This document shows positions 7,392 through 63,450 of a stretch of 64,000 nt of DNA, piece by piece. Origin of the DNA: Tridacna crocea (taxonomy: Eukaryota > Mollusca > Bivalvia > Cardiida > Cardiidae); NCBI GenBank assembly GCA_943736015.1, contig OX031059.1, positions 51,161,159 through 51,225,158 of the forward strand, read 5' to 3'. How positions within the stretch are numbered: the first letter of the stretch is position 1; each line of letters begins with the position of its first letter. Both the position numbers and the translations under genes were made by a program. The notes under the pieces are model-generated. The model ran no database searches, was not told where the DNA came from, and was given only the letters and a program-made list of their open reading frames with translations.

Positions 7392-7787
7392 ATGATGTAT
7401 AGACAAGGGGACAGTAGTTTGACGAGAGTAAAAAGTTCCTGGTCTGTGCTGAGATACGACTTACGAACAGCCATAGACGTTCTTGGTCTACCATGTTTGG
7501 TGAAATTGTCTGAAAATGACGTCGACACATTTTTTCATGGCGTCACCGGAAATGCCGCATCTGGTGAATATCAAGTGAAATTCGAAAGAACTTTGTCGTT
7601 TTTTAGTGTACGTGCGCGTGTTTGTGAACTAAATGACATAGACTGGTTCACATTGTGCAAAGGAGAGGAATTTGTAGCGCAGCACAGACGATTAGTTGGC
7701 ACTGAATTCCTCATTCCAGCGGATTACAAAGGAAAGATTAGACTGGTGGACAGGACAGAAAATAGGGAATACTTAAGTATAGTTGAG
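7392..7787 (+). CDS. Exon 1: start codon and first half of CABIT domain (residues 1-132)
   Basis: The first in-frame ATG is at 7392 (tandem ATG ATG), downstream of an in-frame stop at 7326. The exon ends at GAG|GTAGTT (donor 7788) in phase 0 and is followed by a long CT tract. The protein begins MMYRQGDSS and then has a basic/hydrophobic run. LGLPCLVKLSEND (about 31-43) and FLIPADYKGKIRL (106-118) fit the CABIT pattern of a hydrophobic-x-L/I-P-hydrophobic-xxx-G-x-hydrophobic core, as in GAREM and THEMIS. Exon 2 continues directly with an element resembling the second part of the GAREM CABIT. I see no signal peptide, so a cytosolic N-terminus is likely. The family call rests on motif pattern only. 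Confidence 0.82.
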
Positions 7788-13700: not shown

Positions 13701-16700
13701 TTAATGAATGAAAATTATAAGGCTTTGGGAGTATAAGGATGATTTTTTTGTATTTTTTGTAAAACTTTCGTCCCAATATCTGAAGGGCCACCTTTAATGC
13801 TTGTCTTGTTTGGCTAATTTTTTCAAAGGTTATAATAGGAAAAGAGCTATATTTTTAACATGTTATAGCTCCCTTTAACTCTTTACCAAATGACAAAAAT
13901 CTGGACTAGACTGAATTCAAAGCATTTGCAAACAACATAACGTAGCTAAAATAATGATTCTGTCTACAACAAGGTAGAAAACATTGTGGAACAGGCCCTG
14001 TATCGCTCCAATGGCTTTTTAATCCTTTACCACAAAAATTAAAGTGTTCATGACCCTGAGAAAGAGGGCCTTTGAAAAGAGTGAACAGTGTCCAGCAATA
14101 CAAGCAGTTAATTCATTGGCATGAAAGGTAAAGTGCCTGGAAAAAAAAAAACTAAATGATAGAAACCATATTCTGGATTTAATATTCCAACTATGTGAGC
14201 ATACTATTAGCATCAGAATAAATCACTCTCCCTGAAAACAGAATATTTTCTATCAAAAAAACTTAATGATCTAGCACCATTCATGTATCACTGCAGTTTG
14301 ATATTCAAGGGAGGTAAATAGTAACAAACTTTATCCTTTACAAAAGGAGTTATTTCCCTTGATTAATGTTTAAATTGAAGCGACTCTAATTTGAAGCCCC
14401 TGTTCAACTTGTGATCCCTGGAATGGAGCCAATTTTGACCCCCAGGCCTATAATGTGAAGAAACTTGTTAAAGGTCCATTAGATAAAGGTACATGCCAAA
14501 TTCAGTAGCCCTGGGCCTTGTGCTTTCAGAGAAGATTTTTAGAATGTTAATTTTTTTTTAGTTTTGTTGCCGTGGCAACCAGAGTTTTTTAAGGAATCAA
14601 ATTCCTTCAAGAAATCTGAAGAGGTCCATGGCAGAATCATTTCTGTGACTATGAAGTTTCATCAAATTTGGATGGGTAGTTTCGGAGAAGATGTTTGAAA
14701 TAAAAGTTAATACACGGATGCACGCACGACGGACACTGGGCTATGACATAAGCCAGCTGGCCTTCAGCCAGTGGAGTTTAAAAGGAGAAAATGTTGATTA
14801 CCAGCGTTTTCTCCTTTTCCCACAATATTGTCAAAAGGCCTCTTCCTCTGGGTCGTTAAAACTTGGGATTGTGTGGCAAAGAATTAAGCAAAAATATATT
14901 CATACCAACCAGTTGACGTGGCTAATAAAAGTCTAATAAAAAAAAATATTCATACCATTTAGATAAGAGATTTTTTTCTTGCCTTTGAATGTTTCTGCTT
15001 AATTTCACAAAAACAATTTTTCATCCTGTCTGAAAGAAAGTCTGTACAAAATGGGTTAGATCTGGTTGGGTTTTGTTGTATTCTGTTTAACGCTTTTCAT
15101 TATTAAGTTACCGACATATCTCTCAGCCAGTGCACATGTACTCATACATGCTGCCCTGGAGCTACTTCTACAAGGTCTTGGCACAATATTCCTCCTTAGC
15201 CACTAGCTGCTTGTTGATGGACACTGATCAGCAGTCAAAATGTAGAGTACCAAACAGGCAAAATAAATGTTTCATGTACTTAACCTTTGAGGCAGTGAAT
15301 CTGAGTTTTGTTGGGTCTGCAGGCAGTAAATATCAATATCAGTACCTTATTAGATCCCAGCTCTCAATGCTCAAAAATCTAATTAGGCCCCTTTAAGCAT
15401 ATGTCAGATTCCAAATGATGAAAGGAAGTGAAATATTACAATAAATCACCTCTTATAAGGTCACTAGAATGTCAACAATTCCCTTGACTTTTGAACTATA
15501 CCTCATACAATTATCTTATCAAGCTCTCAATTTTTGTTGATTTTGTATGGAAAAAATGCTCCACAACACTCTCTCACTCATTCACTGCAAACTTGATGGA
15601 TTCATGTTTTCTTGCAGCAGAAAAGTATACTTAAGTTCTGATTGATGCAGATTTTAGTCAAAGATTAATACCAGGTAGCAGATGGTGTAGATCTAAGATC
15701 AGACTTCACATCTTGTGCAGCCTGATCTTGATCTATGCCATCTACAAAAGTTATCCAAGGCAACATGAAGGAGTTAACACAACCCTGTACTAATTAACGC
15801 TGCAGGAAACAGCTTTAGAAGAATTTGTGGGAAAAGAAAGAATGATGTTTACCAACCTACAGTGTTTTCTACTGTTTTGACCATTTACGAAGCAATCCCT
15901 GGTTTTTACGACCCAGAGGTAGAAGCCTCCTGAAAACATTGTTGGAAAAGAAGAAAATGCTGGTAGCTATCTTTCTAACAATGTTTTTTACTCCTCTAAA
16001 GTCAAGTTCTATTTTTTTTTCATGTTTGGTTTGTCGTCTTCTAATGCTTTCAATTTGGACATGTCTGAAATTTTGTTGTTTGGTAAAGTCTTTACCTAAC
16101 AATCCTTGGGTTTTACGACCCTGAGAGAGATGTCTTTTGAAAAAATTATGGGAAAAGGAGAAAATGCTGGTAAATTTTAATGTTTGGGTTACATTTATTT
16201 TGTTGTCTCTAAGTGCTTTGAATTTGGACCAGTCTGAAATTTTGTCATTTGGTAAAGAGTTAAAATCATAAATCGCATCATTTGAGCTTCACTTGATCTT
16301 TTGCTTTCAGATGGATTTCAGTTTTTGCCACATTCAAAATTTTGTTGTCTTGTATAGATTTGAAATTGGCAGTTATTGCACATTTAGAAATTGCTTGTAA
16401 TGTTGATACGATAGGTTCTGTGGTACCTTTATGCCTCATACAAATCAAAGCATAAAAATGTTGGAGTGGTATTTGTCATAGATGACAGATGAGAAAAAGT
16501 ACTAGCAGATAATCATACTCTACACTACTTTCTTTTTACAGGTGATCAAAGATTTTCCCAAATTTGTAAGAGTCGAGAGTGACACAGCATGTTTTTCTCC
16601 CGGTGATATCAACTATCATGTTGTCCACAAGGGGACAGTGCTAGAGCTTGACAGAGTGACACAAAACAACAGAACTGCAGGAGGATCACGTGACACATTT

Positions 16701-52700: not shown

Positions 52701-55700
52701 TTTCGTTGAAATTCACTGATGAATGAAAGTTGATTACTGGTAATTAATTGAAGTTATATGATGTTGAAAGTTAATTTCAAATCATTTACACTATAAGTAT
52801 AACAACACTGGAGAAGAAAGCTTTCGAAAAAATTGTGCGAAAAAAGAAAAAGTTGGTAACCAGCATTTTCTCCTTTCTTATTTCTTTATCATTTGAAGGC
52901 ATATTCCACCTTTAGAGCAAGAGCGAAGCTGCAAATGCCCTAAAGTTGGACTTACGTAAAATTTTGTCATCTGATAAAGAGTAAATATGGTAAAAAAGAT
53001 TATGGAACTATGCATTTTTCCAACTTAAAGTTATTGGTATATGTACACATGAGGATCCAGAAATGGGATCGAGGGGGACCAGGGATCTGGAACCTCCCCG
53101 AAATTTTGGCAATGATGTAGTTATCTGATTTGTCCAAATAAGCTACTTTGTGGCCAAATTCATATTGCATCTGGTTGCCGTTAAATACACCTTGACTAGA
53201 TGTGGTACATGATGTGGTCTGAAATTAAAAGCAGTATTTAGTTTATACCTTAAAACATGTGAACAACCCCTTATGCAATAAATGAAAAATATAGAATGCA
53301 AACTAGTTAACCCATTACCACACAATCCCAACTTTTGATGACCTGAGAAAGAAGCCTTTAAAAAACATTGTGGGAAAAAGCGAAAATGCCAGTAACCAGT
53401 ATTTTCGCCTTTTCCCACAATTTTTTCTTCCCTTCACAAAACAAATTTCAAATATTCAGTCACTTTTATTTTGTTGTCTGCAAATGCTTTCAATTTGGAA
53501 AAGTCTAAAATTTTGTTGTTTGGTAATGAGTTAATAGAATGCCTTTATATCGTTAAGTATATTGTTTAATACCATAATTGCGGAGAATTGATGCTCATAC
53601 AACTCGTAAAGAACGGTCAACTTTGAATTATATGCAACAATGTGCATTTGTAAAATGATCTCACACTGTTCAATGCTGCTGTTTTGTTGTCTTACAAAAT
53701 AGAGTTTTCAATATTTTTCCTAAATATAAATATATTTGATATCTGATCAGATCAGTGAGTTTCATATACATGTCTTAAACTTGTTACAAAACATGCATTG
53801 TTATAAAATCAACAGGAAAAAATTTTGTTGCTATAGATAAGTAATTAACAAATATTTTTAGCAAACATGGTGAAAAATGCAGCCATGGAAGCTTAACGAT
53901 GAGAAACTAATTTGTACAAAAGATGATTTAAAAAAAAACAAAACTTTTATTCTTATAGAGCAACTCCCCCTTACAAACTAAAACATTGAAATTTTAGTCC
54001 AGAATCGAAAAAACAATTAGAATTGTTTCGTCAGAGATTTGTTTTCATTGTGGACAGTAGAGGATCAAGATTGAACTTTTAGTACAGTCCAATTTCGATT
54101 CATACCAGCCACAAAGTGTACTTTAATGATAAATTTGGGGTGCTTAGTTGGTGTATATAGAATCAAAAAGAGAAATCAGGTACTAATAGGTAAATTCGAA
54201 GCTAGTTTCAAGTGGGAAATTTCAAAATGGCAGGCAGTGCAGAATCAAGACAAACATAGCCCATTACCACACAATCCCTACTTTTGACACCCCTGAGAAA
54301 GAAGCCTTTAGAAAACATTATGGGAAAAGGAGAAAATGCTGGTAACCAGCATTTTGTCCTTTCCCACAATGTTTTCTACCCTTCACAAATTCAATCACTT
54401 TTATTTTGTCTTCTGCAAATGCTTTCGATTTCGACAAGCCTAAAAATTGTTGTTTGGTAATGAGATAGACATAGACATTCTATATTTACCTAAGCTGATA
54501 CAGCTTCTAGTCATAAATACATAATACACACATAATACATTCACATGACTTGTATCAGTTACCAAAGTTTGAAGACATTCTCTCTGGAAGAAAGCATACA
54601 TATTAAAATCATGTTTATGGCTATAAAAGTTGCCTATTTATTATGAAAACTAAAACATTTCATTGATAGCTGTTTACAAGATGACACAAATTTGGACTGA
54701 TCCAAAATGGAAACATGGCCCACAATTAAAACTCATTGAAGATACAGATTCTGTCATTCAAAGAGCTACACTTTCAAGTAGTTTGGTCTCGGTTCAGTGT
54801 GTAAGACTTATGTACAACCCTCTTAATTATACTTCAGTCAGAAATTTCAGGATGGGACTTCACTGTTGGCGCAGTCTGATCCCAATTCCCAGAAAAGTTG
54901 AGGATTCTTGTAAATTGCTTACATCCTCAGAAATTCAGTAATCAAAGTATCATTTAACAAGACGTGTATGGGTTAGATCGGACCCTCCATGAGAAAAATA
55001 GCTGGATCTGTGCATGATGTATATGATAGTATCTTATAGCTTAACTAGTATTCAAACATGACACATGAATTCGGCACTTTGTTTACAGTGCAATGAAAGC
55101 TTGATAAAATTTAGGTTATTCTATTGTATATAGAGTGAAATCAGTCTGTATAAGGTAAGTAAGTTACCCAGTGGGGTATAATATGCACTCTGTATTTTTA
55201 CTTGTTCACCTTTGTTAAGAGTTGGTCATAATAGAAATAATCTTAAGAGTTGGTCATAATAATCATTAGAAATAATCATCTTTCTAACGAGGTTTATTGT
55301 TCAATAAACCACATTGTGAGTTATGAGGTGCAATGAATAGCCTACTCTAGCTATTGATTATTTACTTGCCTCATAACTCACAACTGTGGTTTATTGAATG
55401 ATAAAACATGACAGAAAGAAGATAATTTCTGAAATATACATTTTCAGATGTGGCTGTAAAAGAATTGAAGTACAAGAAAAGCACAAGTTCTCAACCATAT
55501 GCTTCTTTACATTCTGATCTGGACTTGTATAAGGAGTGCTTTCTACTGCGGTTTGTATATCCTAACCCCTGTTGGCGAACTTGATATTTTTAGGATGGAA
55601 GGTCCCCGTGGGGTCCCAGGAGTTTTTTACTGTATAGAATGGGACCTCAGCCTTTCTCTATGGCATATCGTAGAAGGCGACTAAAATTAGAGACAAACTG

Positions 55701-58700
55701 CTGCTTTCCTCGTAATTCGTAGGATTGCAGCAGGCTGGGTAGTTCTTGTTCCAAATCCTACATTTTTTTCTCGATGTAAATAGGGTTTGGAATGGGAATC
55801 AATTGGCCTGTGGACCCGTGTGGTTTAATCGGGGGGTATAAGAATAAACCACTGAAGTCCAGCGAACGTCACATCTACCATTTCATCTGGCGGAACAAAA
55901 GTGACAGCATGCATGTCGTAAAAGGGCGACAAAAGGGGCATCATTCAGTGTTTCGTCCATTCCTCATTTATCATATTTGTCTTTTGTTGTTGCACATGTA
56001 TGTTATTTTCACCTCACATTATTGTTTACTAAGTAAGTGCGCCCAATATAACCCAAGTTGTTGACAGGCCTTAAAATGCTATTCATTAAAAAGGAAGGAT
56101 ACTCATATAATTGCAGTTTCAAGACTAATTTTGGCCAGAATGTCTCTGAAGAGTCACAGTATATGTCCAAGGTCAGACTGCACATTATGTGCTGTCTGAT
56201 CTTGGTGTACATTAACTGCATATGCAGCTATAGCTTTGATAGGCATTTAACTCATTACCAAACAACAAAATTTTAGGTTAGTCCAAAATTGAAAGCATTT
56301 GCAGACGACAATATAAAAGGGACTGAAAATTAGAAATTTGTTCTTTGAAGTGTCGAAAAAATTGTGGGAAAAGGAGAAAATGCTGGTTACCAGCATTTTC
56401 TCCTTTTCCCACAATGTTCTCTGAAGGTTTCTTTCTCAAGTCGTTAGAAGAAGAGATTGTTTGGTAATGGATTAAAAGGTTATTCATGCCTATTCAAAAT
56501 CCCAGCCCACAGTAGGAAAGATTCAAGATCATTGTGACAGAAGTTTTCTAGTGCTCCAAGGTCATTATTCTTCTATGTGTAATAAATAAATTTAGATTTT
56601 TGGATGGCCAAATGTTTTTTTGTTTTAGGCTGAAGACACTTTTTGTCTGTAGTTAACTAATAAGTACTGGAAGGTGAAGATAAGCCACATGATTGCATTT
56701 TCTGTGCATCTAATCTTGATCTACAAAACATCTTCACCAGATAATGAAGTTTCAACTTACCAGTGACTGTAATCTCTATTTGTTTCATGGATTAACAACT
56801 TAAAACATTACCAAAGAATCCCTGAGAAATAATACTTTTGAGAACATTGTGTGATTTCTGCTTTTCCTAAAATGATTTAGCCCTTTATCTTCACCAGGTT
56901 TAACTTGTTGTCTGCAAATGTTTACAATATGGATGAGCAGAATTTAGAGAGATTAGTATAAGTTGTAAGAAATTGTTTCTCATTCGATGTAAAATAAATA
57001 TGTTTAAACTAATATGGACGAGTCAAGAATCTGTCATCTTGTAAAGAGTAACACAAATAATTCTAGAGAAAATACTCACTACAGATTCCAATATGATAGA
57101 TCCAATCAATTATATTTCAGACAGCTGTCTAAATCGCCATGTGATAATATTGTGAAATTCTTGGGTAGCAGTTTTAAACCAGACAGTAATGAGCATGAAA
57201 ACATTTGTAAGTTGTGGCTGGTATTTGAGCTCTGTGACGGAACACTGGATGACATCATAGGACGACCAGTGCAAGACAAGACTGAGAGACACGAAGACTT
57301 TCAGTGGTATGCCTCTGAAATTATCAAAGGACTCAAATTTCTGCATGACAAAAATATTGTGCATAGAGATTTGAAGCCATCTAATTGTTTGGTATGTTAT
57401 TATGTATTTATCTTTTCACCTCCTGCATCAAATTTGTTGCAGAAAACTTTGTAACAAAGTGTTAAGGACCCAATCATTTAATCATTGTGGAATATAATAG
57501 CCTGTATTTTCTCTATTTCCTACAATATTTTTTACCCTAGCTCACAAAATTCAATCTTAACCCTTTACCAAACAATCCCTGGTTTTTACGACCCTGAGAT
57601 AGAAGCCCTTTTAAAGGTGGGTATTTAGAAATTTTACATCTCACCAAATTGAAAAACATATCTATCACTAAAATTTATATGAAAAAATAATAAAAATCAT
57701 CAATAAGTAAGACTCATAAATTTACCAAAAAAATTTTTTTTGATGGTGTTCCCCTAAAAGGCTACGTAGCCTCTTAAGGTATTTTTAGATTTCCCGCCAA
57801 AAATCAATAAAGCATTTTGGGAATGTCAAGTCACTGGCATGTGACTTATAACGCTTAAATTCCGTTACATAACAAACATGTAATAATTATTTTCCATAAT
57901 GTCTTCTTCGGACCCTTGTTTGAAACTTTGTCTCTGTATTCATGTATATAAATGAACGAATTGATCATCTAAAAATAGAACGTGTCTCCCGTTGGTGTCA
58001 ACCTTGGCCGTAGTAAATCTCTAATTTCTCGTGCTGTCGGGTTATTTTCGACTATTGGGGTTTTATGAAGGCAAATTAAAATGCTTGGGGAGTACCGTGT
58101 TTTGGTGCGTATAACACGCACATTTTTTCAGCTCTGAATAATTTCAAACTGGGGACTGCGTGTTATACACTACAATAGGCAAAACCATGTTTTTCACCTC
58201 CTTGAAAGTCGGTCGTATACCTGTTCAAAGTGGGTGGGGGAGTGGCGTAGTTACGAAAACGGCAAAGTTCTCTCGCCACAGCCTTAACTTTCATCATCAT
58301 CCCATTTCAACTTTTACCGATTCAAAAAAAACATTAATGTTTTAATTTTGTTGAAATGTACTTGTACATTCTTTATTTGTCGATTAGGATTCGTAATTTC
58401 CCGATTCTATCAGCCATTTTGGCAATGGCGAACGTACCCGGAATGAAAAATATTGATTTACTGTTATCGTCTGATTCGTCTCGTATTTTTTTTATTCTTT
58501 GTTAATAGCTAAAATTGAACATTTATAAAAGAGTAAAATAACGATTCATAAAGAAATTAATAATTTGAAAATATATATATTTATCGCTACTTTTTACAAA
58601 AACCGTGATTTACATCATACTTTAGGTCTATGTTTATTTCACACCTGTCACATTTGTCGATCAAGGTGAGAAAATAGGAGATTAACTACGATATGGTCGT

Positions 58701-61700
58701 CAGTTCTATGTGTGAATTTGCAAATGTCATAAGCTGGCATGATTTTGTAATCACCCGAGTACACATCGAATCATTACCATTTCCACTTTGATTAAAAATG
58801 GTTATTTCCCTTTGATAAAGTATCGCCATTTACAACTTTTCAAGACGGCGACCTAAGCTTCACATGTTACGATATTTTGGTCAATTTTTGATGCGTGTTG
58901 TACATCCGAACAACCTTTTTTCCCCGGATCTGATGCTGAAAAAGGCCTGCGTGTTATACATGCCTGCGTGGTATACACAGCGTTTTACGGTATAAGGATG
59001 ATTTTTTTTTTAATTTTTTTAAAATTTTCGTCCCAAGATCTGAAGGGCCACCTTTAAAGCATTGTGGGAAAAGAAGAAAATGCTGGGAACCAGCATTTTC
59101 TCCTTTTCCCACAATGTTTTCAACCCTGCTGGAAACAAATTTCAATTTTTGAGTTACGTCTATTATGTCGTCTGCAAGTGCTTTCAATTTGGACCAGTCT
59201 AGAATTTTGTCATTTGGTAAAGGGTTAATTTTTTAGTCAAGTTTATTATGTCGTCTGCAAATGCATTTGATTAATTTGCACAAGTCTAACATTTTGTTGC
59301 TTGGTACAGAGTTTTAAGTTAAAATGATGTGTAATACATTTAATATTTGTATCATAAGAAGAAATTGCTCATCATGAAAACATCTGCAACTGAAAAAATT
59401 TAACTAATTACTGCAAAATGATGCTACATTAATAACTTAACCCTTTAGCAACTGGCAAAATTTGGGATTTGACCAAATTACATGCATTTGCAGACGACAA
59501 ATTAAACATTGATGAAATGATAATTTCTCTCTCTAATAGAGTAGAAAACACTGAGGGAAAAGGAGAAAATGCTGATTACCAGCATTTTCTCCTTTCCCAC
59601 AGTGTTTTCCAAAGACTTCTTCTTTAGTGTCGTTAAAAGTCGGGATTGTGTAGTAAAGACTTAAGTATTTTTGTCTTCCGTGAAAAAAAACCCAGCTTTT
59701 GAAAACATTGTAGGAAGATGAACCAATGCTTTCATTTACTGACCAATTGTTTCTTTTACCTGTATTGTCTTTACCTTCATTGTTTTCAGTAGGTAAATGC
59801 AAGCATACCATTTTACATTAACCTTTTACTAGGTTACAAAAGTTCAGACAAGTCCAATTTGAAAGCATCTGAAGGTGCTGTGGCTCAAATAAATGAATTT
59901 ATCTATGGAAGGATAGAAAACATTGTGGGTAAAGGAGAAAATGCTGGTTACCAGCGTTTTCTCCTCTTTCCTTCATGTTTGTGAAGGCTTCCTGATCAGG
60001 GTCAATGAAATTTGGGATTTACCATAAGGTGATAAAGGTAAGACAAAATGTTTCAGTGTTTGTCTACGGATATTAGCTAAGGCTTAAGTATTTCTAAATT
60101 GAAAAGGCAGAGGCCTTAATCTTTTTGTATGCATTAGGTGACCCAGCTAGGCACATTTGTTTTGTATGACCACATCATCTTGTTTGCTGTTTGGTCCCAA
60201 TACCCTGGTCATAACAAATACAAGTCAACAAGAGGTTTTATATTGTCTGTTACTGTTGCTTCTGGTCTAACTTAATCAAGTTAGCTCAGCTGCCTTAGAA
60301 GAACATGGCAAGGCTTTGCCATAGCTCGGATGTTGTTGTCCGCATGATTATGCAAAACCTTTGATATTTTATCATATCTTTGTCATTACTGAAGGTATTT
60401 GCTTCAAACTGTGACAAGTTGTTCATGATCAAAAGGGGAACCCATACAACGATGGCAAGTGATCATCAAAGTAATTTTGACACAATTATGCCCCATTTTC
60501 TACTTTGAATTTTTCACCTAGAAGCAAGTGACTCCAGTGGAGCATTGGCACCTGCATATGTTGCTCGTGTACTTACGGATTTAGAAATAGTCTGTTTTGT
60601 AATGCTTAAAAAACTAACTTTTTCAGCTAAAGAAACTAGACAGCAACAAGTTTATGGTGAAAATGGCAGACTTTGGGGCATCAAAGCAAAAGGATTTGGT
60701 AAGTATGGCTCCTTAACCCACTACAACACAATCCTTACTTTTAACCATCCTGAGAATGAAGCCTTAACCCTTTACCCCATAAGGCATTTCTATGGTATCT
60801 CTAACTGACCCTAAATAACAGCCAGGATGAAGCCGTTTCCTATGCGGAAAGGACACCTTTTGATAGCATAGAAAACATTGTGACAAAAGGCGAAATTGCT
60901 CATCACGAGCAGTGTCACCTTTTGCCACAATGTTTTAAAGGCTCCTACAAGCAATGCATGGAAATGAGTATCTATGGAGTAAAGGGTTAAGAAAACATTG
61001 TTGGAAAAGGAGAAAATGCTGGTAACCAGCATTTTCTCCTTTTCCCACAATGTTTTCAAGCCTTCACAAAACAAATTTCAAATTTTCAGTCACTTTTATG
61101 TTGTTGTCTGCAAATGCTTTGGACAAGCCTGAAATATTGTCGTTTGGTAATGAGTTAACTCTGTACCAAAATACAGCATTTTTGACCGGTCCAAAGTGAA
61201 AGCATTTGCAGACAACAATTCAGTTGTGGCTCAAATATTGAGATTTGTCTTTAATGGGGTTGAAAATATTGCAGGAAAGGGAGAAATGTTTGTTACCAGC
61301 ATTTTCTTCTTTTTCCCGCAATGTTTTACAAAGACTTTTTCCACAAGGTCATTAAAACTCTGGACTGTGTGGTAAAGAGTTAAAATGACTCATCTTGTCT
61401 TTTAAAGGTGGGTATTTAGATTTTTCACATCTCACCAACTTAAAAAATATATATTTATCACAGAAATTTATATGAAGAAAATAATAATAGAAATTACCAA
61501 TAATTAAGAATCATAAAATTACAAAAAAAAAACTTTACGTAGCTCTACGTAGCCTCTTCAGGTATTTTTAGATTTCGCGCCAAAAATACAAAAAAAGCAT
61601 TGTGAAAATGTCAAGTGACTGGCACGTGGCTAATGACACTTAAATTCCATGAAATAACAAACATGTAATTATTTTCTATAATGTCTTTTTCGGACACTAT

Positions 61701-62706
61701 GCTTGAAGCTTCGCCTGTGTATTTTGGGTATGTAAATGAGCAAGTTGCTCATGTAACAATAGATGGTGTTTCCCATTGGTGTCGACCTGGGCCGTAGTAA
61801 ATCTGTAATTTCTTTTGTTGCTGGATGGTTTTTGAATACTGGGGTTTTATAAATGAAAATTGTGCTACTGCATGAAATTTGTTATCAATGAAATGCGCAG
61901 TAGAAGGTAACAACTACAATATTGGATTTACAAAAAAGCGTAGTCAGTAACATTATCATTTATGTTCATCTCTGTTATCTGTGATATTGAATTAAAAGGA
62001 AAGGGGAGAACTGTTTTGTTTTCATGGAGATATGAAAAAAAAAATTGTTTCATTCTTTAACTCATTACCAAACAACAAATTTTTTGGCTTGTCCAAATCA
62101 GAAGCATTGCAGACGACAAAAAATAAAAGTGACTGAAAATTTGAAATCTGTTTTGTGAAGGGTAGAAAACATTGTGGGAAAAGGAGAAAATGCTGGTAAC
62201 CAGCATTTTCTCCTTTTTCCCACAATGTTTTCGAAAGGTTTCTTTCTCAGGGTCATCAAAAGTAGGGATCGTGTGGTAAAGAGTTGAGTTAAAATTAGCT
62301 TGCTACCAGTTGAACAATATTGTATACACAAGTTTATGAGTTCCAATACAATTCACAGATATGTACCCACGCGGTGCAGAGAGGAACACCATTTTACTGG
62401 GCACCAGAAATTGTGAAGTATGCAGACATTAGATTTCATTCAAAAGCATCAGACATATACAGTCTCGGACTTATCTTGTGGGAACTGTGGTACAGAAGGC
62501 ATGCATACCAAGATTTCAACATAATACTTGCAGAAATTCCACACAGGTTTCCAAATGAACAAGAACCAAGAGAAATACTGCAAATGTGTCTAAAAAGTCA
62601 TCCATATCAGCGTGCAAGCATATGTACATTGGAGTTGCATCCATTTTTGCAGGTTACTGGCCAAGGAATGGCAGCAGATGGTAAGCCTGCACCAAGAATG
62701 GAATGA
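7392..62706 (+). CDS. CABIT - dynamin-like GTPase - protein kinase fusion gene (17 exons, spliced)
   Basis: This gene-level entry spans 17 exons: 7392-7787, 16542-17256, 19419-19541, 21195-21226, 24707-25282, 37175-37478, 39672-39967, 41453-41776, 44605-44745, 46085-46237, 47945-48154, 49426-49541, 51372-52405, 55448-55550, 57121-57391, 60627-60698 and 62359-62706. Every intron is GT..AG, all phases match, and the total is 5214 nt (1737 aa plus stop). Seen: a CABIT-like region about 20-300, PPLPPK 364-369, VVYATV 576-581, GTPase motifs at 716-724, 980-983 and 1048-1052, a helical stalk about 1132-1285, a hydrophobic segment 1288-1330, and a kinase domain about 1459-1720. Known: CABIT adaptors (THEMIS, GAREM) scaffold GRB2/SHP2 signalling, and dynamin-like GTPases remodel membranes. 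Inferred: a membrane-linked signalling GTPase-kinase. The weakest join is exon 5 to exon 6, and untranslated 5' exons may be missing. From memory, vertebrate DSTYK (dynamin-like remnant plus kinase) is the nearest architectural comparison. Confidence 0.85.
7788..8402. repeat. Intron 1, 5' part: CT tract, family A (7938-8171) and family B (8170-8402)
   Basis: A (CT)-rich run lies at 7800-7860. The family A copy has a hairpin around GGGAAAAAGGAGAAATTGCT. The abutting reversed family B copy ends in TACCCCATAAGGCATTTC / ATGGTGTAAAGGGTTAA. Its hairpin is GGTGAAATTGCTTGTGATGAGCAATTTCACC in form. Confidence 0.75.
8466..10122 (+). mobile_element. Family C element copy 1, split by a nested insertion
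   Basis: The left part (8466-8810) starts TTAAAGGTGGGTATTTAGA. The right part (9952-10122) ends CTGAAGGACCACCTTT. Other copies at 12413, 13247, 42633 and 61402 carry the same interior without the insertion. Confidence 0.8.
8813..9949. mobile_element. GC-rich TA-flanked element nested in family C
   Basis: The ends CGGTCACAAA and TTGTGACCA are inverted, with TA on both sides. The interior is far more GC-rich than the window and packed with degenerate CTGCCGGC/GCCGGCAG words. It has open frames on both strands (9181-9588, 9208-9474) without any domain. Confidence 0.75.
10123..10497. repeat. Family E repeat
   Basis: It contains CATGATACCAAGCAAGTC, GAAGTAGACTGGTCCTC, GCAGGCTGAGCTGAGTTGAT, and GCCCCATTTTGCCAGAG, matching family E blocks elsewhere. 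Confidence 0.55.
10498..12412. repeat. Cluster of family A MITEs
   Basis: Copies lie at about 10498-10707, 10975-11202, 11220-11447 (reversed), 11534-11764 and 11863-12091. After the last, a segment of about 150 bp holding GGTTAACCTTGGATCAGCCA through the hairpin half is repeated (12085 and 12235), leaving two extra half-elements. Confidence 0.75.
12413..12959 (+). mobile_element. Family C element copy 2
   Basis: It has TTAAAGGTGGGTATTTAGAA and GAAGGGCCACCTTTAA ends with a full interior. The terminal TTAA is shared with the reversed family A copy that follows (12956-13190). Confidence 0.8.
12956..13190 (-). mobile_element. Family A MITE between two family C copies
   Basis: It starts TTAACCCATTACCACACAAT and has a full hairpin. 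The right end is degraded (TTTGGTAACAAGTT). Confidence 0.75.
13247..13797 (+). mobile_element. Family C element copy 3
   Basis: A complete copy with TTTTAAAGGTGGGTATTTAG at the left and TGAAGGGCCACCTTTAA at the right. Confidence 0.8.
13798..14300. repeat. Degraded family A remnants
   Basis: CTCTTTACCAAATGAC at 13880 and a second end at 14024 (CCTTTACCACAAAAATTA) lack the full hairpin. Confidence 0.5.
14301..14895. repeat. Dispersed bivalve-type repeat plus family A half
   Basis: GGATGCACGCACGACGGACA, GACATAAGCCAGCTGGCC and TTCAGCCAGTGGAG are typical of repeats seen across bivalve genomes (recalled, not searched). A family A hairpin follows at 14780-14890. Confidence 0.55.
14896..15675. other. 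Intron 1 stretch without recognised element
   Basis: AT-rich sequence. An 88-codon open frame at 15130-15396 has no domain and no good splice borders. Confidence 0.4.
15676..16265. repeat. Family D palindrome and family A copies at the end of intron 1
   Basis: 15676-15757 is built on GATCAGACTTCACATC and TGTGCAGCCTGATCTTGATC. Family A copies follow at about 15880-16092 and 16090-16265. The latter two share one end. Confidence 0.65.
16542..17256 (+). CDS. Exon 2: rest of CABIT domain and PPLPPK SH3-ligand motif (residues 133-370)
   Basis: The acceptor is TTCTTTTTACAG|GTG and the donor is AATATG|GTAACT. Phase is 0 in and 1 out. The residues continue exon 1 without a break (SIVE-VIKDFPKFVRVE). 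A block reading HVVHKGTVLELDR is followed by FLICFDQESGRELAF (Cys188) and a beta-rich stretch. This matches the arrangement in GAREM-type CABIT domains, where the conserved Cys sits in a hydrophobic-x-C context. The C-terminal end is proline-rich: DPPDTPPLPPKY with PPLPPK at 364-369, a class of motif bound by GRB2-type SH3 domains in GAREM. This is the largest exon of the N-terminal module and its reading frame is uninterrupted over 238 codons. Confidence 0.9.
17257..19418. repeat. Intron 2: family A copies, nested MITE, family D
   Basis: Family A ends appear at 17294 (37 bp past the donor), with fuller copies at 17567-17660, 17658-17880, 18018-18247, 18272-18500 and 18860-19085. The 18272 copy has the hybrid hairpin AGGAGAAATTGCTC..GAGCAATTTCTCCT. 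A family D palindrome lies at 18606-18700. Confidence 0.7.
17312..17563. mobile_element. MITE with about 57-bp terminal inverted repeats
   Basis: The left arm starts CCTCGGATACCCCGGGGTCT and the right arm is its reverse complement with two or so differences, ending CCGGAGTATCCGAGG. The arms include TGCTACGCTACATCGACCC. It sits inside a family A copy whose CCTTTACCACA end is found on both sides. Confidence 0.8.
19419..19541 (+). CDS. Exon 3: linker after CABIT (residues 371-411)
   Basis: The acceptor is AATATCTTTAACAG|ATTTTG and the donor is GGGA|GTGAGT, a near-consensus site. Phase is 1 in and 1 out. The single G left from exon 2 completes an Asp codon. The product reads DFAALRSTLSEQHVPGID and then a charged stretch with RKRFLSTGDLKGAG. 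I recognise no domain. RKRFLSTGD resembles a basophilic kinase target, but that is only a pattern. It is called as coding because both sites are good and the phase joins both neighbours. Confidence 0.75.
19542..21194. repeat. Intron 3: degraded family A copies
   Basis: Family A remnants are at about 19626-19690, 19783-19965, 20506-20712 and 20735-20963. 19980-20500 holds no recognised element. Confidence 0.6.
21195..21226 (+). CDS. Exon 4: 32-nt microexon (residues 412-422)
   Basis: The sequence between CTGTTGAAG| and |GTAAGA encodes SQSSLGSVDRE, with the first Ser completed by the A left over from exon 3. Phase is 1 in and 0 out, which is exactly what links exon 3 to exon 5. The exon is very short, so it depends on splice-site quality and phase alone. 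The Ser-rich content fits the neighbouring linker. Skipping it would shift the frame into exon 5. Confidence 0.6.
21227..24706. repeat. Intron 4: family A cluster and long palindrome
   Basis: Family A copies are at about 21671-21899, 22160-22365, 22360-22590, 22587-22814, 23573-23821 (reversed), 24010-24245 and 24355-24585. Roughly 22815-23570 and 23822-24005 show nothing recognisable. Confidence 0.7.
21364..21565. mobile_element. Near-perfect 202-bp palindromic MITE
   Basis: The ends are CAGGGCCTGCATTCACCAAC and GTTGGTGAATACAGGCCCTG in form, with arms of about 90 bp. The centre is TGATTGGCTAAACCGGATGG and its mirror TTTAGCCAATCA. CAGGG..CCCTG ends suggest a hAT-like MITE. The target duplication is not clear. 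Confidence 0.8.
24707..25282 (+). CDS. Exon 5: Ser/Asn-rich linker with VVYATV motif and CxxC (residues 423-614)
   Basis: The acceptor is TTTATGTTTCAG|ACTCGT and the donor is GAGGAACAG|GTTTAA. Phase is 0 in and 0 out. The start is basic (RGYLNRLTHRAKSRAS), followed by a long Ser/Asn/Thr-rich, probably disordered stretch. Near the end are EEVVYATVQK (Tyr578, of the V-x-Y-x-x-V form bound by tandem-SH2 phosphatases when phosphorylated) and VFLCQICREN (Cys598, Cys601). The CxxC resembles the first knuckle of a zinc finger, but no further partners follow. A stop codon lies just past the donor, so this could be read as a terminal exon. The in-frame NEEQ duplication with exon 6 and the matching phase argue for splicing on. 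Confidence 0.85.
25283..31207. repeat. Intron 5, first half: family A cluster, tandem units, SINE
   Basis: The first family A copy begins at 25285, two bases past the donor. Further copies are at about 25467-25692, 25856-26085, 26284-26495, 27193-27420, 27643-27876, 29904-30135, 30381-30606 and 30605-30828. There are fragments at 28830-28920 and 29000-29240, a family E/D block at 27040-27590 and a reversed SINE at 30955-31130. 26500-27000 holds nothing recognised. Confidence 0.7.
28140..28640 (+). repeat. Tandem array, unit about 163 bp, about 3.3 copies
   Basis: The phrase AACACAAATGCCAAGTTTCA recurs at about 28153, 28313 and 28477 with a short final unit near 28586. Units include GATGACAAAGTTATGCTCCG and AAGGGGAAATAACTCAAAGA. 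The array interrupts a family A element, whose right end reappears at 28655-28700. Confidence 0.75.
31302..31374 (+). tRNA. tRNA-like sequence in 5' LTR (possible anticodon GGT, Thr)
   Basis: The cloverleaf can be drawn as acceptor GGTTCGG/TCGAGCC, D stem GCTC/GAGT, anticodon stem CAGGA/TCCTG with loop ACGGTAT, and T arm CTGGG-TTCGAAT-CTCGG. Box A (TAGCTCAGTTGG) and box B (GGTTCGAATC) are present. Position 33 is C rather than T, so a functional tRNA is doubtful. It is more likely a pol III-competent relic within the LTR. Confidence 0.5.
31594..31666 (+). tRNA. tRNA-like sequence in 3' LTR (possible anticodon AGT, Thr)
   Basis: This is the second copy of the same cloverleaf. The anticodon loop is ACAGTAT and box B is GGTTCGAATCC, a perfect consensus. 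It differs from the first copy in the anticodon loop and T stem, so the two LTRs have diverged slightly. Confidence 0.5.
31740..33725 (+). repeat. Array element J1: CCCCGCC-bordered, about 155-bp units
   Basis: It starts CCCCCGCCATAGGCGGAGGG, then GTCCGTCCGTCCGTCCATGT. Units carry GTCATGAAAAAAGGGGGCTT at about 32129, 32283, 32444, 32602, 32805 and 32952. An inverted repeat lies at 33371-33485. It ends in a block of about 165 bp shared with J2, finishing TTTCGGCGGGGGATGTCATT. Confidence 0.75.
33371..33485. repeat. Palindrome inside J1
   Basis: GAAAACAAATAAAGGAAATA and TACATAAAACCCCCTCTTTC face TATTTCCTTTGTTTGTTTTC across a short spacer. The arms are about 45 bp with a few mismatches. Confidence 0.75.
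33869..34099 (+). mobile_element. Family B MITE, full copy
   Basis: The ends are TTAACCCTTTACTCCATAGA and CCTTATGGGGTAAAGGGTTAA. The hairpin is ACATTGTGGCAAAAGGTGAA and its mirror. Reversed or related copies are at 8170-8402, 46248-46475 and 60763-60990. It shares the family A end motif but has different flanks. Confidence 0.8.
34098..34587. repeat. Family A copy and family D palindrome
   Basis: Family A is at 34098-34320, joined end to end with the preceding family B. Family D is at about 34365-34500 (GTGTAGATCATGATCAGACT). Confidence 0.65.
34588..36560 (+). repeat. Array element J2: CCCCGCC-bordered, about 140-150-bp units
   Basis: It starts CCCCCGCCGAAAGGTAGTGG. About six units contain TTGTCCGGAGCATATCTCCA and AACCATAACTCTATCTTCAG. 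A second leader (AGTGGGGGAGGGATATGGTA) at 35720 begins a related sub-array. It ends in the same block as J1 from ATGTAATGAAATCCTGGGCC to GGCGGGGGATATCATTTC. Confidence 0.75.
36561..37174. repeat. Family A copies at the 3' end of intron 5
   Basis: Copies are at about 36580-36650 (remnant), 36720-36870 and 36880-37108. A terminal stub at 37128-37160 (GTCTAAAATTTTGTCATTTG) runs straight into the exon 6 acceptor region. Confidence 0.7.
37175..37478 (+). CDS. Exon 6: helical region leading into the GTPase P-loop (residues 615-716)
   Basis: The acceptor is placed at AAATGAG|GAACAA. Its tract is poor in pyrimidines, but this choice gives phase 0 to match exon 5. The alternative GTATTAG at 37199 would need a phase-1 donor. 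No in-frame Met precedes the exon (a TAA lies at 37160). The protein is mostly helical (FENPAAYVLSTSMCYLKG, then KELLEST and LFKDVKREI) and finishes with RRLDLIESREIRILIAG, the beta strand entering the Walker A loop. The donor AGCAG|GTAATG splits Gly716. The body of the exon is secure and the 5' boundary is not. Confidence 0.85.
37479..39671. repeat. Intron 6: family A copies and a hairpin
   Basis: 37500-38095 shows nothing recognised. Family A copies are at 38096-38308 (reversed), 38420-38650, 38648-38850 and 38990-39121. A hairpin at 39340-39449 (AAGTTATTGACCATATATTT with its mirror ATATGATCAATAACT) encloses a short GC-rich loop. Confidence 0.7.
39672..39967 (+). CDS. Exon 7: GTPase G1 (Walker A) and G2 motifs (residues 716-814)
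   Basis: The acceptor is TTTCTGAACAG|GGGATG and the donor is CTTCAACAG|GTTGGT. Phase is 1 in and 0 out. Joined to exon 6 it reads ILIAG-DVSAGKSTLMNILMGG, a textbook P-loop (Gly716, Gly721, Lys722, Ser723). KYFPVQFLSTTK follows, where Thr742/743 would serve as the switch-I (G2) threonine. The N-I-L-M-G-G-x-x-F-P spacing after GKST is typical of the dynamin superfamily, including bacterial dynamin-like proteins and mitofusins, rather than of Ras-like GTPases. The remainder is charged and ends in KVLVMWPLELQQ, a likely beta strand. Confidence 0.95.
39968..41452. repeat. Intron 7: SINE tail remnant and array J3
   Basis: 40105-40260 is a diverged reverse SINE like 48500-48680. The rest is mostly the array listed separately. 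Confidence 0.55.
40440..41330 (+). repeat. Array element J3: about 150-bp units, five copies
   Basis: It starts TAGCTCTACTGGCTGAAAGCC with GTCTGTCCGTCCGTTAG, and repeats units with TTCAAATTCTTGTTTACACG, AATAGCTTCAACCCTATTGA and AGTATGGGAAAAGTAGCC. It ends GGCTGCCAGTAGAGCATATT. The borders (ACTGGCTG..CAGTAGAGC) differ from those of J1/J2. Confidence 0.75.
41453..41776 (+). CDS. Exon 8: acidic insert in the GTPase domain with a 13-residue tandem repeat (residues 815-922)
   Basis: The acceptor is TGTGTGATTGTAG|AACATC and the donor is CTAAAT|GTAAGC. Phase is 0 in and 0 out. From residue 820 there are six near-identical units starting DQTTP, alternating DQTTPKTTWDNDP-like and DQTTPMRVVGDDL-like forms. 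This gives a 39-nt unit with a 78-nt higher-order period. The exon ends NTKKECLQGYDNLSWSLLN. Each unit has a Thr-Pro site. The position between G2 (exon 7) and G3 (exon 10) is unusual for a G domain, so the insert probably forms a disordered loop. As a symmetric phase-0 exon it could be skipped without changing frame. Confidence 0.88.
41468..41704 (+). repeat. Coding minisatellite, 39-nt unit, 6 copies (in exon 8)
   Basis: Six units begin GATCAGACAACACCAA or a close variant and repeat every 39 nt. Odd and even units differ in the second half, so the best period is 78 nt. The last unit has one extra GAT codon. All units keep the frame. Confidence 0.93.
42633..43175 (+). mobile_element. Family C element copy 4
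   Basis: Full-length, with ATTAAAGGTGGGTATTTAGA and GAAGGGCCACCTTTAA ends. Confidence 0.8.
43221..43633 (+). mobile_element. Family G MITE copy 2
   Basis: The ends TCATCTTCGCGAGCCAAGG and CCTTGGCTTGCGAAGATGG are good inverted repeats. The interior is shared with 1584-1965. Confidence 0.78.
44440..44575. repeat. Family D palindrome, clearest copy
   Basis: CAGTGTAGATCCAAGATCAG, ACTGCACATTCTGTGCAGTC and TGATCTTGATCTACACTGTC form an almost perfect palindrome of about 65 bp. The copy ends CCTAAGGGTTAAG. Confidence 0.8.
44605..44745 (+). CDS. Exon 9: second acidic insert exon (residues 923-969)
   Basis: The acceptor is CAATCCATTTCAG|AGCAGT and the donor is GATGAG|GTTGGT. Phase is 0 in and 0 out. 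It encodes SSKSEDLDADDRSDQAATRG, then DLDGIDLCRTEPERKNSD and a Ser-rich end. The Asp/Ser composition resembles a degenerate version of the exon 8 insert, but I see no clear repeat. It has no recognisable domain and is called from its splice sites, phase and position. Like exon 8 it is symmetric and skippable. Confidence 0.75.
44746..46084. repeat. Intron 9: family E and A copies
   Basis: A family A-like stub lies at 44790-44830, family E at about 44930-45190 and family A at 45590-45820. A short repeat of CTACCTAGACCAAACTGGA-like phrases lies at 45245-45360. Confidence 0.6.
46085..46237 (+). CDS. Exon 10: GTPase G3 motif DTPG (residues 970-1020)
   Basis: The acceptor is TTATTTCTAACAG|GAGAGA and the donor is GAGGGT|GTAAGT. 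Phase is 0 in and 0 out. The product ERDEFKIIFVDTPGITSRTA has Asp980-Thr-Pro-Gly983 after a hydrophobic strand. This is the G3/Walker B motif, in the form DTPG seen in dynamin-like GTPases. It continues as FDEIETAGSLYQAFILVNDG, the next helix and strand. The exon is flanked on the 3' side by a family B repeat only about 10 bp beyond the donor. Confidence 0.95.
46238..47944. repeat. Intron 10: family B, palindromes, array fragment, family A
   Basis: Family B (46248-46475) begins 10 bp after the donor. 46490-46700 is a palindromic relative of family D/E with TCAGATCATGCAGTCCGCAC. 46738-46990 is a leader-type GC-rich repeat with GGGTGGGTGGGCGTCTGGGT. Family A pieces are at 46985-47075 and 47412-47640. 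47080-47330 repeats AATTAAGTGGTTCAAGAG phrases about four times. Confidence 0.65.
47945..48154 (+). CDS. Exon 11: GTPase G4 (TNKFD) and G5-like strand (residues 1021-1090)
   Basis: The acceptor is TTGATTTTAAG|TTCCAA and the donor is AAAGAA|GTAAGT. Phase is 0 in and 0 out. The product contains YMMNPECALFITNKFDQVA. TNKFD (1048-1052) is the guanine-specificity motif (T/N-K-x-D). The end VKQNIIFMSASKE has the SAS element expected at G5. Its acceptor has a modest pyrimidine tract, but the frame and motif order leave little doubt. Confidence 0.95.
48155..49425. repeat. Intron 11: family A, SINE, inverted repeat
   Basis: Family A is at 48178-48404, about 48720-48940 and 48950-49150. A reversed SINE is at 48500-48680 (box B as CCCGGGTATCGAACAC). 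An inverted repeat at 49205-49410 (CTCCAGATTAGAGGCAGTGA facing ATTCCCTCTATCTGGAGCT) is related to 43750-43905. Confidence 0.65.
49426..49541 (+). CDS. Exon 12: end of GTPase domain, start of stalk (residues 1091-1129)
   Basis: The acceptor is GTTTCATTTTCAG|AAGATA and the donor is TGCTT|GTAAGG. Phase is 0 in and 2 out. It encodes KIYGSSIISGSGNFLRGIKQ, then LLGDFVTKAIRISMEEHC. The G-x-x-x-L-x-x-x-L-x-x-F pattern is the helix that closes the G domain in dynamin-like proteins. The two leftover bases TT join the first G of exon 13 to give Leu1129. The acceptor lies immediately after an inverted repeat (about 49205-49410). Confidence 0.85.
49542..51371. repeat. Intron 12: family A cluster
   Basis: Copies or pieces are at 49565-49823, 49823-50010, 50171-50330, 50808-51080 and 51150-51345. 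50340-50800 has nothing recognised. Confidence 0.65.
51372..52405 (+). CDS. Exon 13: helical stalk, hydrophobic membrane segment, start of kinase (residues 1129-1474)
   Basis: The acceptor is TATCACAATAG|GTGGCT and the donor is TCAAGTG|GTAATT. Phase is 2 in and 1 out. The first about 155 residues are strongly helical and coiled-coil-like (KKKREIEDLKKKHQMQWEKI). Residues 1288-1330 (from MEGIATAMFPVAISG through VPLLPIPLLLKMIV) are hydrophobic, as in the membrane-inserting part of mitofusin-type dynamins. A second charged helical stretch follows. The exon ends with IQLGGTVYKAKTNSS, the beta1-beta2 strands of a kinase N-lobe. The glycine loop is degenerate: the G-x-G half is missing and only GGTVYKA is clear. 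A stop two codons past the donor shows the exon must be spliced or end there. Exon 14 completes the VAVK motif exactly. Confidence 0.95.
52406..55447. repeat. Intron 13: family A copies and an inverted-repeat element
   Basis: Family A is at 52448-52677, about 52800-52985, 53308-53533 and 54258-54467. 53540-54250 and 54470-55200 show nothing recognised. The 92-codon frame at 54663-54941 has no motif. Confidence 0.6.
55269..55430. mobile_element. Inverted-repeat MITE just before exon 14
   Basis: GAAATAATCATCTTTCTAAC and GTTTATTGTTCAATAAACCA face CTCATAACTCACAACTGTGG and AGAAAGAAGATAATTTC. The right end lies 17 bp before the acceptor cut. Confidence 0.7.
55448..55550 (+). CDS. Exon 14: kinase VAVK lysine and alpha-C glutamate (residues 1474-1508)
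   Basis: The acceptor is TACATTTTCAG|ATGTGG and the donor is CTACTGCG|GTTTGT. Phase is 1 in and 2 out. The G left from exon 13 makes Asp1474, giving DVAVKELKYKKS (catalytic Lys1478). HSDLDLYKECFLLR follows, with Glu1503 placed as the alpha-C salt-bridge residue. The donor is non-consensus at +4 to +6 but preserves the frame into exon 15, where the sequence continues RQLSKSPCDNIVKF. That is the usual alpha-C to beta4 wording of kinases. Confidence 0.92.
55551..57120. repeat. Intron 14: unassigned sequence, family D, family A
   Basis: 55560-56130 has no recognised element. It contains GGAAGGTCCCCGTGGGGTCCC, a small hairpin. Family D is at about 56140-56225 and family A at 56246-56477. A SINE tail lies at 56940-56990 (GTATAAGTTGTAAGAA). 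Confidence 0.55.
57121..57391 (+). CDS. Exon 15: kinase hinge, alpha-E and catalytic loop HRDLKPSN (residues 1508-1598)
   Basis: The acceptor is AATTATATTTCAG|ACAGCT and the donor is AATTGTTTG|GTATGT. Phase is 2 in and 0 out. It reads CDNIVKFLGSSF, then LWLVFELCDGTLDDII (hinge and alpha-D) and IIKGLKFLHDKNIVHRDLKP. HRD is at 1589-1591, Lys1593 and Asn1596. HRDLKPSN favours Ser/Thr specificity. All catalytic-loop residues are present. Confidence 0.97.
57610..59057 (+). mobile_element. Family C element copy 5, with nested insertion
   Basis: TTAAAGGTGGGTATTTAGAA is at the left and GAAGGGCCACCTTTAA at the right. The interior is broken at GGGGAGTA/TATAAGGATG by the 896-bp element listed separately. 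Confidence 0.8.
58095..58990. mobile_element. TA-flanked 896-bp element nested in family C
   Basis: The left end CCGTGTTTTGGTGCGTATAAC and the right end ACACAGCGTTTTACGG (reversed CCGTAAAACGCTGTGTATAC) are imperfect inverted repeats with TA on both sides. CGTGTTATAC words recur at both ends. The TA target and ends suggest a Tc1/mariner or pogo-type non-autonomous element. No transposase frame is seen. Confidence 0.75.
60627..60698 (+). CDS. Exon 16: kinase DFG loop (residues 1599-1622)
   Basis: The acceptor is AACTTTTTCAG|CTAAAG and the donor is GATTTG|GTAAGT. Phase is 0 in and 0 out, 72 nt. It encodes LKKLDSNKFMVKMADFGASK followed by QKDL. DFG is at 1613-1615 and the sequence follows directly from the HRDLKPSNCL end of exon 15. 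Skipping this symmetric exon would keep frame but remove the magnesium-binding Asp, so an inactive isoform is possible in principle. Confidence 0.95.
60699..62358. repeat. Intron 16: families A, B and C
   Basis: A family A end is at 60713 (14 bp after the donor). Family B is at 60763-60990, family A at 60990-61157 and 61158-61383, and family A again at 62055-62290. Confidence 0.7.
61402..61861 (+). mobile_element. Family C element copy 6, 3'-truncated
   Basis: It starts TTTTAAAGGTGGGTATTTAG and matches the interior to ACTGGGGTTTTATAAATG. The terminal CCACCTTTAA is missing. Confidence 0.75.
62359..62706 (+). CDS. Exon 17: kinase activation segment and C-lobe, stop codon (residues 1623-1737)
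   Basis: The acceptor is ACAATTCACAG|ATATGT in phase 0, and the stop TGA is at 62704-62706. The protein shows QRGTPFYWAPEIVKY (APE 1637-1639), SKASDIYSLGLILWEL (alpha-F Asp), ILQMCLKSHPYQRASI (with the alpha-I Arg) and LELHPFLQV. A short tail MAADGKPAPRME follows. This is a full C-lobe of normal length. The closest group by eye is TKL or 'other' Ser/Thr kinases. I cannot fix the family without alignment. Confidence 0.96.
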   Translation: MCTHAVQRGTPFYWAPEIVKYADIRFHSKASDIYSLGLILWELWYRRHAYQDFNIILAEIPHRFPNEQEPREILQMCLKSHPYQRASICTLELHPFLQVTGQGMAADGKPAPRME

Positions 62707-63450
62707 CTTGAAGGATTAAATGAACAGTCAAAGTAATAACTACCAAAAGTTTGCAGCAGGTGAATATATGGAAAATTAACATGATTAAAAAATCATAAAA
62801 AGCAATTTTTTCTTGTGCAACAAGATTTTCAAAAGTGTTTGATGCAGGCAGGAAAAAAAAAACTGTTAGCAAAATGTGATGAACTGAGAGGTTGTTATGG
62901 AAACATTAATCAGAGGACTTTTTACCATTACACTATTAAATGTAGAAGGCTGTCAATGAGACTAATCAAAATATTTTAAATTAATACATGGCTGTTTCTG
63001 TGATAATGAATTGTGATATTACATTTCAAATGATAGCATATTGTGATAAATCATCTATAGATTTGTATTGTGTTCTTTGTTTAATCCTTATTAAACCAGC
63101 CTATGTTTTTATGACCCAGGGCAAGATTTGGTTATATAGCTGCTGAATGCTCTTGATTTTCGCTAAATCTGCAATTCAATGTATCGGACAGTGCAGAACA
63201 AAGAGGATGATTGTTACATACATGTATATGTTTCAAGATATGGCTGTTTCTGTGATAGAAAATGGTGATATTTTATTTAGATCTAAACAGACAAAGCTTT
63301 TGAAAATATTGAAAATATTGTGGGGAAAAGAGTTTAAAAAATACTTTTACTGTCATTAAAACTCAGGGTTTTGAGGTAAAGGGTAGATGCATTACCATGA
63401 GATAAGGCCACATGCATGGATATCATCAATTGTGTGACACCATTACCATT
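62707..63450 (+). other. 3' UTR and downstream flank
   Basis: There is no AATAAA soon after the stop. The best poly(A) candidate I see is ATTAAA at 63090-63095. Beyond it are degraded family A pieces (63300-63390). Confidence 0.35.

Follow-up and report, generated by a model that had tools for sequence, protein, structure and literature searches.

Organization of the locus

The window considered here, which is the whole stretch of DNA that was analysed, corresponds to 64 kb of contig C4 from a 1.049-Gb genome of 31 contigs. It contained no Ns, and 29.6 kb of it proved similar to other parts of the window by self-comparison. Much of this repeated part seems to belong to a family of ~230 bp, a repeat that is frequent in the window, has inverted ends like TTTAACCCTTTACCA, and is found, for example, at 27644-27875 and 63449-63679.

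The gene model was rebuilt from open frames, splice-site scores and phase, the splice sites being scored with simple matrices. A chain of 15 in-phase exons was obtained on the plus strand, running from an ATG at 7392 to a stop at 62706 and comprising 4719 nt, that is, 1572 residues and the stop codon (Table 1). The domain order in the predicted protein was CABIT, linker, dynamin-like GTPase, a helical region with a hydrophobic stretch, and kinase. An earlier note, made from the sequence only, had described a single frame of 17 exons and 1737 codons; the open in-phase plus-strand chain between these positions, with its three domains, was recovered, and the exon and codon counts were revised to those given above. 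All joins of the model were in phase, as had been claimed, the exon 5/6 join having poor splice scores. Moreover, the three domain assignments of the note were borne out by a Pfam HMM search of the joined 1572-residue protein, in which each domain scored above its cut-off: Pkinase at 9.2e-37 (residues 1298-1554), Dynamin_N at 5.9e-13 (residues 702-893; 49.6 bits, cut-off 27), and CABIT at 9.3e-9 (residues 94-234; 35.5 bits, cut-off 24). Confidence in the linker is lower than in the domains, because the frame is also preserved when exons 3 and 4 are left out by joining 17256 directly to 24780. At the other end of the gene, a good donor (AGATG/gtaagc at 62680, score 4.7) was observed within the last exon, 26 nt short of its end, and it might lead to an alternative last exon lying beyond it.

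Table 1. Features of the window and of the related GTPase-kinase loci, with the evidence for each
Feature	Position	Strand	Evidence or identifiers
Exon 1: ATG start and N-terminal part of the CABIT domain	7392..7787	+	Pfam CABIT
Exon 2: remainder of the CABIT region; PPLPPK proline motif at its end	16542..17256	+	open frame, Pfam with exon 1
Exon 3: linker, in phase	19449..19541	+	frame and phase
Exon 4: linker, 32 nt	21195..21226	+	frame, splice scores
Exon 5: low-complexity linker; 3′ edge is the insertion boundary	24707..25282	+	frame, splice scores
12-nt direct repeat AAATGAGGAACA, left copy	25270..25281	+	word comparison
Repeat-rich stretch, ~11.9 kb, between the two 12-nt copies; putative insertion into one ancestral exon	25283..37167	none	
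12-nt direct repeat AAATGAGGAACA, right copy; run of A just before it	37168..37179	+	
Exon 6: region N-terminal of the GTPase	37175..37478	+	donor position common to three paralogous loci
Exon 7: dynamin-like GTPase, G1 (GDVSAGKST) and G2	39672..39967	+	Pfam, paralog alignment
Open frame judged outside the gene; 41462-41698 is a tandem repeat	41453..41776	+	
Exon 8: G3 (VDTPG)	46085..46237	+	paralog alignment
Exon 9: G4 (NKFD)	47945..48154	+	paralog alignment
Exon 10: last part of the G domain plus subsequent helices	49426..49541	+	frame and phase
Exon 11: helical region with a hydrophobic stretch (residues about 1120-1170), then the kinase start	51372..52405	+	
Exon 12: VAVK lysine	55448..55550	+	joined frame
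Exon 13: HRDLKPSN	57121..57391	+	intron position common to three paralogous loci
Exon 14: DFG	60627..60698	+	joined frame
Exon 15: APE, C-lobe, stop	62359..62706	+	joined frame, Pfam
GTPase-kinase loci	C13:27.337-27.358M, C4:19.459-19.476M, C4:44.154-44.165M		L035, L039-L045, L032, L038

The two surplus exons of the note were probably pieces placed between 39967 and 46085, as reconstructed from its codon count, and both were tried as exons and rejected. The piece at 41453-41776 (108 codons) consists mostly of a 39/78-bp tandem repeat, and paralogs cross the intron directly; the frame of ~56 codons near 44580-44745 falls at an intron position that three paralogous loci pass straight over. In these three loci the same intron lies exactly five residues past a WP (or LP) motif, with DTPG (or DSPG) encoded by the exon that follows. 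The extra exons are therefore unsupported, since the paralogous loci go directly to the DTPG exon and the first piece is mostly tandem repeat. With the direct join of exons 7 and 8, the Pfam score for Dynamin_N was 49.6 bits, versus 35.2 bits for the G1 exon alone.

The CABIT half

The frame of exon 1 alone scored 22.3 bits against the Pfam CABIT model, below the cut-off of 24, exon 2 alone had no Pfam match, and the two exons joined reached 39.6 bits. By eye, exon 1 shows LCKGEEF...FLIPADYKGKI, a candidate for the cysteine-containing core motif of CABIT domains. When the genome was searched with residues 1-604, eight matches were returned, four of them being exons of the window and four lying elsewhere on C4, at 23.55M, 53.01M, 53.06M and 49.23M. 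The last of these (L002) scored 43.1 bits against Pfam CABIT and resembled the window CABIT half at E 2e-5 in a small set and 0.0019 genome-wide. Moreover, a profile of three sequences (the window, L002 and L001), in which two Pfam-confirmed CABITs were included, reached THEMIS at 3.7e-7 among solved structures. That the CABIT call is wrong and the N-terminal half adopts a different all-beta fold would be consistent with the modest Pfam score, with the lack of any PDB match up to E 5 when the window CABIT half was searched as a single sequence, and with the related exons at C4:23.55M and C4:53.01M, which taken alone gave no Pfam CABIT match and 16.8 bits, respectively, neither above the cut-off. 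It is nevertheless very improbable given the score of the joined exons, the similarity to L002 and the THEMIS match.

At C4:23.55M and C4:53.01M, the equivalent of exon 2 appears to share its start position with exon 2 of the window. Further on, both loci have an open frame in which proline and tyrosine motifs occur together with a module that is SAM-like by eye and received no Pfam call. No GTPase or kinase like those of the window was detected in the ~28 kb downstream of the related exons at these two loci (best profile E 1.9 and 0.45, for a search that had no positive control). A module of this kind after the window kinase (62785-62976) was considered and taken as a chance match (E 0.11-0.30, ~9 bits). 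The six places with a Pfam CABIT match (L001-L006), as well as C4:23.55M, 53.01M and 53.06M, all lie on C4, the contig of the window gene and one of the 31 contigs. Between the last two, L052 (C4:53.03-53.04M) has open frames that resemble a reverse transcriptase and a tyrosine recombinase, which we take to be perhaps a DIRS-type element.

Exon 2 ends in PPLPPK, and a PxxPxK motif was expected only 0.14 times per shuffle of residues 301-640, which suggests a putative SH3-recruiting motif by analogy with known adaptors. On the other hand, ITIM-like tyrosine motifs were at chance level, three being found versus 3.1 expected.

The GTPase and kinase domains

The G1 (GDVSAGKST), G2 (threonine), G3 (DTPG) and G4 (NKFD) motifs were all present and could be aligned with those of three paralogs, in agreement with the note's description of complete G1, G3 and G4 motifs. 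When a profile of the four G domains was compared with the PDB, the bacterial dynamin-like protein ranked first (4.1e-21), followed by 5owv (a GTP-binding protein) and mitofusin-2. The hydrophobic stretch of exon 11 had a best 42-residue hydropathy of 1.74, versus a maximum of 1.68 in 500 shuffles, and a strongly hydrophobic segment was also measured in both paralog loci of C4 (C4:19.48M and C4:44.15M). Single-sequence structure predictions had pLDDT values of 41 and 31, too low for use.

In the kinase domain, which the note had considered complete in its motifs, the VAVK lysine, HRD, DFG and APE were indeed found; the claim did not extend to the glycine-rich loop (LGGTVYKA), which has no complete GxGxxG and is two residues shorter than in both aligned paralog kinases and four residues shorter than in ASK1. 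With such an altered loop, as read from the predicted protein, the domain could be either an active kinase or a pseudokinase scaffold. Compared with eight other kinases of the same genome, it matched the two GTPase-linked ones best (59 and 55 bits, versus 40-52 bits for the others), with a small margin and in a tree that did not resolve. This comparison covered six of the 11 other kinase loci (L016-L026), and for the two GTPase-linked kinases the exons had been joined by hand, each of the remaining six being represented by one open frame, possibly incomplete.

A GTPase-kinase family in the genome

A genome search with the GTPase-kinase half gave 41 matches at E up to 0.001, of which 10 corresponded to the window gene and the 31 others to the kinase part only; a Dynamin_N search of the genome gave 17, the window gene being one of them. 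At three loci (C13:27.34M, C4:19.48M on the minus strand, and C4:44.15M), GTPase exons preceded exons of helical and kinase-type regions, all on the same strand within each locus. The presence of both Dynamin_N and Pkinase was confirmed by Pfam in the hand-joined proteins of C13:27.34M and C4:19.48M. The kinase of C4:44.15M showed weak resemblance (E 0.04-0.4) and looks degenerate (VHFDLSQ). Three intron positions and their phases, with donors read from the printed flanks, agreed in all four genes: a phase 1 intron before the P-loop, a phase 0 intron five residues past WP, and a phase 0 intron after HRDxKxxNxL. Because of this shared domain order and the three shared intron positions, the GTPase-kinase half was regarded as a member of a family in this genome. 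Further dynamin-like P-loop exons, possibly belonging to more family members, were noticed at C7:15.99M, 44.20M, 44.87M and 44.92M (L033, L031, L034 and L037, respectively). Two viral-contig scans were negative.

These loci fit the DSTYK-type layout that had been named in the note. As judged from the predicted proteins, GTPase plus kinase is a family layout in this genome, DSTYK-like and with a GTPase of the bacterial-dynamin/mitofusin type, and the CABIT front is the new part. A search upstream of the three other GTPase-kinase loci gave no CABIT domain (within 20 kb at two of them and 8 kb at the third), which is a weak negative, since the home-made profile used scored its positive control, exon 1 of the window, at only E 0.1. 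In the loci that were examined (two related to the CABIT half, three to the GTPase-kinase half), the two halves were not seen together outside the window gene, given that the CABIT relatives showed no GTPase or kinase in the ~28 kb downstream and that this weak test found no CABIT upstream of the others.

One gene or two

The point at which the two halves meet is the intron between exons 5 and 6, which is ~12 kb long and repeat-rich. The 25282/37175 join has the weakest splice sites of the model, the donor scoring -4.0 (61st percentile of the 3529 GTs in the window) and the acceptor -16.4 (percentile 0.00 of the 3692 AGs), and reading through exon 5 leads to a TAA one codon later, inside the repeat stretch. 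Both edges, however, carry the 12-nt word AAATGAGGAACA, the left copy ending one base before the edge of exon 5 and the right copy spanning the edge of exon 6, and no other copy exists in the window. The longest word shared by intron edges was thus 12 nt here and 4-6 nt at each of the remaining 13 introns; only 3 of 16649 random unmasked 40-nt pairs shared 12 nt or more. The left edge of the stretch coincides with the end of the repeat family of the window; on the right, the terminal ~65 nt weakly resemble this family (39 nt at 77%, E 0.002), and strong matches start further in. When the stretch was collapsed, a single open exon was obtained, continuous from the CABIT linker to the P-loop. This arrangement suggests that the 12-kb stretch was inserted into one ancestral exon of an already existing fusion gene, in which case the fusion of CABIT to GTPase-kinase would be genuine and the stop just after exon 5 would belong to the insert. 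When the repeats near one edge were matched to those near the other, identity was only 75-80%, which suggests that these copies are not recent. Concerning the target-site type of the family, 23 terminus matches yielded only three pairs, without a convincing target duplication, and for this reason the 12-nt word is referred to here as an insertion signature, without assignment of the repeat family to a type of element.

On these grounds, the favoured reading, with a probability of roughly two in three, is that of one gene, in which a CABIT-bearing gene would have been fused in frame to a member of the GTPase-kinase family of the genome, its junction exon later taking up the 12-kb insert. It is based on the domain content and order, the open frame, the family relations, the shared intron positions and the 12-nt signature. 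The same junction could be read as the space between two neighbouring genes, with exons 1-5 forming a CABIT gene and exon 6 opening a separate GTPase-kinase gene, the two being joined only in the model of the earlier note. The splice signals there, the TAA met one codon beyond exon 5, an in-frame ATG in exon 6 at about 37241, and the weak negative obtained when CABIT was sought upstream of the three paralogous loci all speak for such a pair; we consider it unlikely, because the shared 12-nt word implies an exon that was once continuous and open, and the stop lies inside the repeat stretch. Moreover, the C-terminal module of the two CABIT-half relatives has no match in the window (best E about 0.1, versus 1e-44 or better for the two training sequences, by construction). 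A more plausible alternative, which still appears doubtful, is that the fusion existed and was later split by the insertion, so that CABIT and GTPase-kinase are now made as separate products, or that the gene is in decay in this individual. The insertion signature and the diverged repeats at its edges are as expected from such a split, as are the weak splice sites at exon 5/6, but long frames remain open on both sides (e.g., 344 codons in exon 11), in a model that was itself chosen to be open, and the junction can be bypassed in frame by a better-scoring route from a donor at 24920 (3.4) to an acceptor at 37224 (-0.4).

Relation to known proteins

DSTYK, the dusty kinase, also named SgK496 and sometimes RIPK5, has a dynamin-like region followed by a C-terminal kinase, and this layout is shared by the window gene. 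In vertebrate DSTYK the GTPase motifs are degenerate, whereas the window gene has intact G1-G4 motifs and a CABIT domain in front, and it was not filed as DSTYK. The paralog at C4:19.5M, with HRDLKLANVL, DLGFAKEE and GTVTHMSPELL, presumably reads like DSTYK. The closest solved G domains to the window family are those of the bacterial dynamin-like protein (BDLP) and mitofusins, and the helical region with its hydrophobic stretch is reminiscent of the BDLP paddle; neither the bacterial dynamin-like protein nor mitofusins are known to have a kinase or a CABIT domain. As for the CABIT half, the domain is shared with THEMIS, THEMIS2 and GAREM, the last corresponding to the Fam59 proteins.

The BDLP paddle is described as contacting lipid and the molecule as polymerising, mitofusins being expected to be built alike (PMC2862293), and the kinase relations of DSTYK are described as disputed (PMC9573974). 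GTPase and kinase also share one polypeptide in LRRK1 and LRRK2 (RIPK6/7) (PMC9573974); these have a Roc/COR GTPase and leucine-rich repeats, and no family relation is claimed. Themis2 binds Grb2 through PPPRPPK (PMC2903609), a motif to which the PPLPPK of the window gene is close. Mammalian CABIT proteins comprise the Themis proteins, with two CABITs, and the Fam59 proteins, with one, and the available part of this source mentions neither a GTPase nor a kinase domain in them (PMC3931654), in contrast with the window gene, which has both. C. elegans RDE-2 has also been named as a CABIT protein (PMC11094273). Among the literature matches listed, no description was found of CABIT, dynamin-like GTPase and kinase in one protein.

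Proposed mechanism and implications

By analogy with these systems, the GTPase and helical part would bind the membrane through the hydrophobic stretch, and GTP would drive assembly on the membrane, as in the bacterial dynamin-like protein. This assembly would gather the C-terminal kinase domains, while the CABIT and PPLPPK parts would recruit GRB2-type SH3 adaptors, so that GTP-driven assembly could result in kinase signalling at the membrane. GTP-driven clustering combined with SH2/SH3 recruitment, which had been proposed in the earlier note, is a plausible hypothesis. A more speculative extension, put forward only tentatively, is that the protein may act as a self-contained signalling node, with GTP-dependent membrane assembly via a mitofusin-like hydrophobic hairpin, a self-clustered kinase and its own THEMIS-type adaptor, and that, through the repeat insertion within the fusion exon, a CABIT-only adaptor may be made from the locus in addition to the full protein.

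If this were true, the node would join parts which vertebrate pathways place on separate proteins, and the poorly understood CABIT module would be linked directly with an enzyme as well as with a membrane-assembling GTPase, which would hint at the usual partners of CABIT adaptors. The locus is, in addition, a candidate example of a repeat insertion that divided an exon and left the reading frame intact. Moreover, with its GTPase motifs intact, the window gene would offer a way to test what GTPase assembly does in DSTYK-like kinases.
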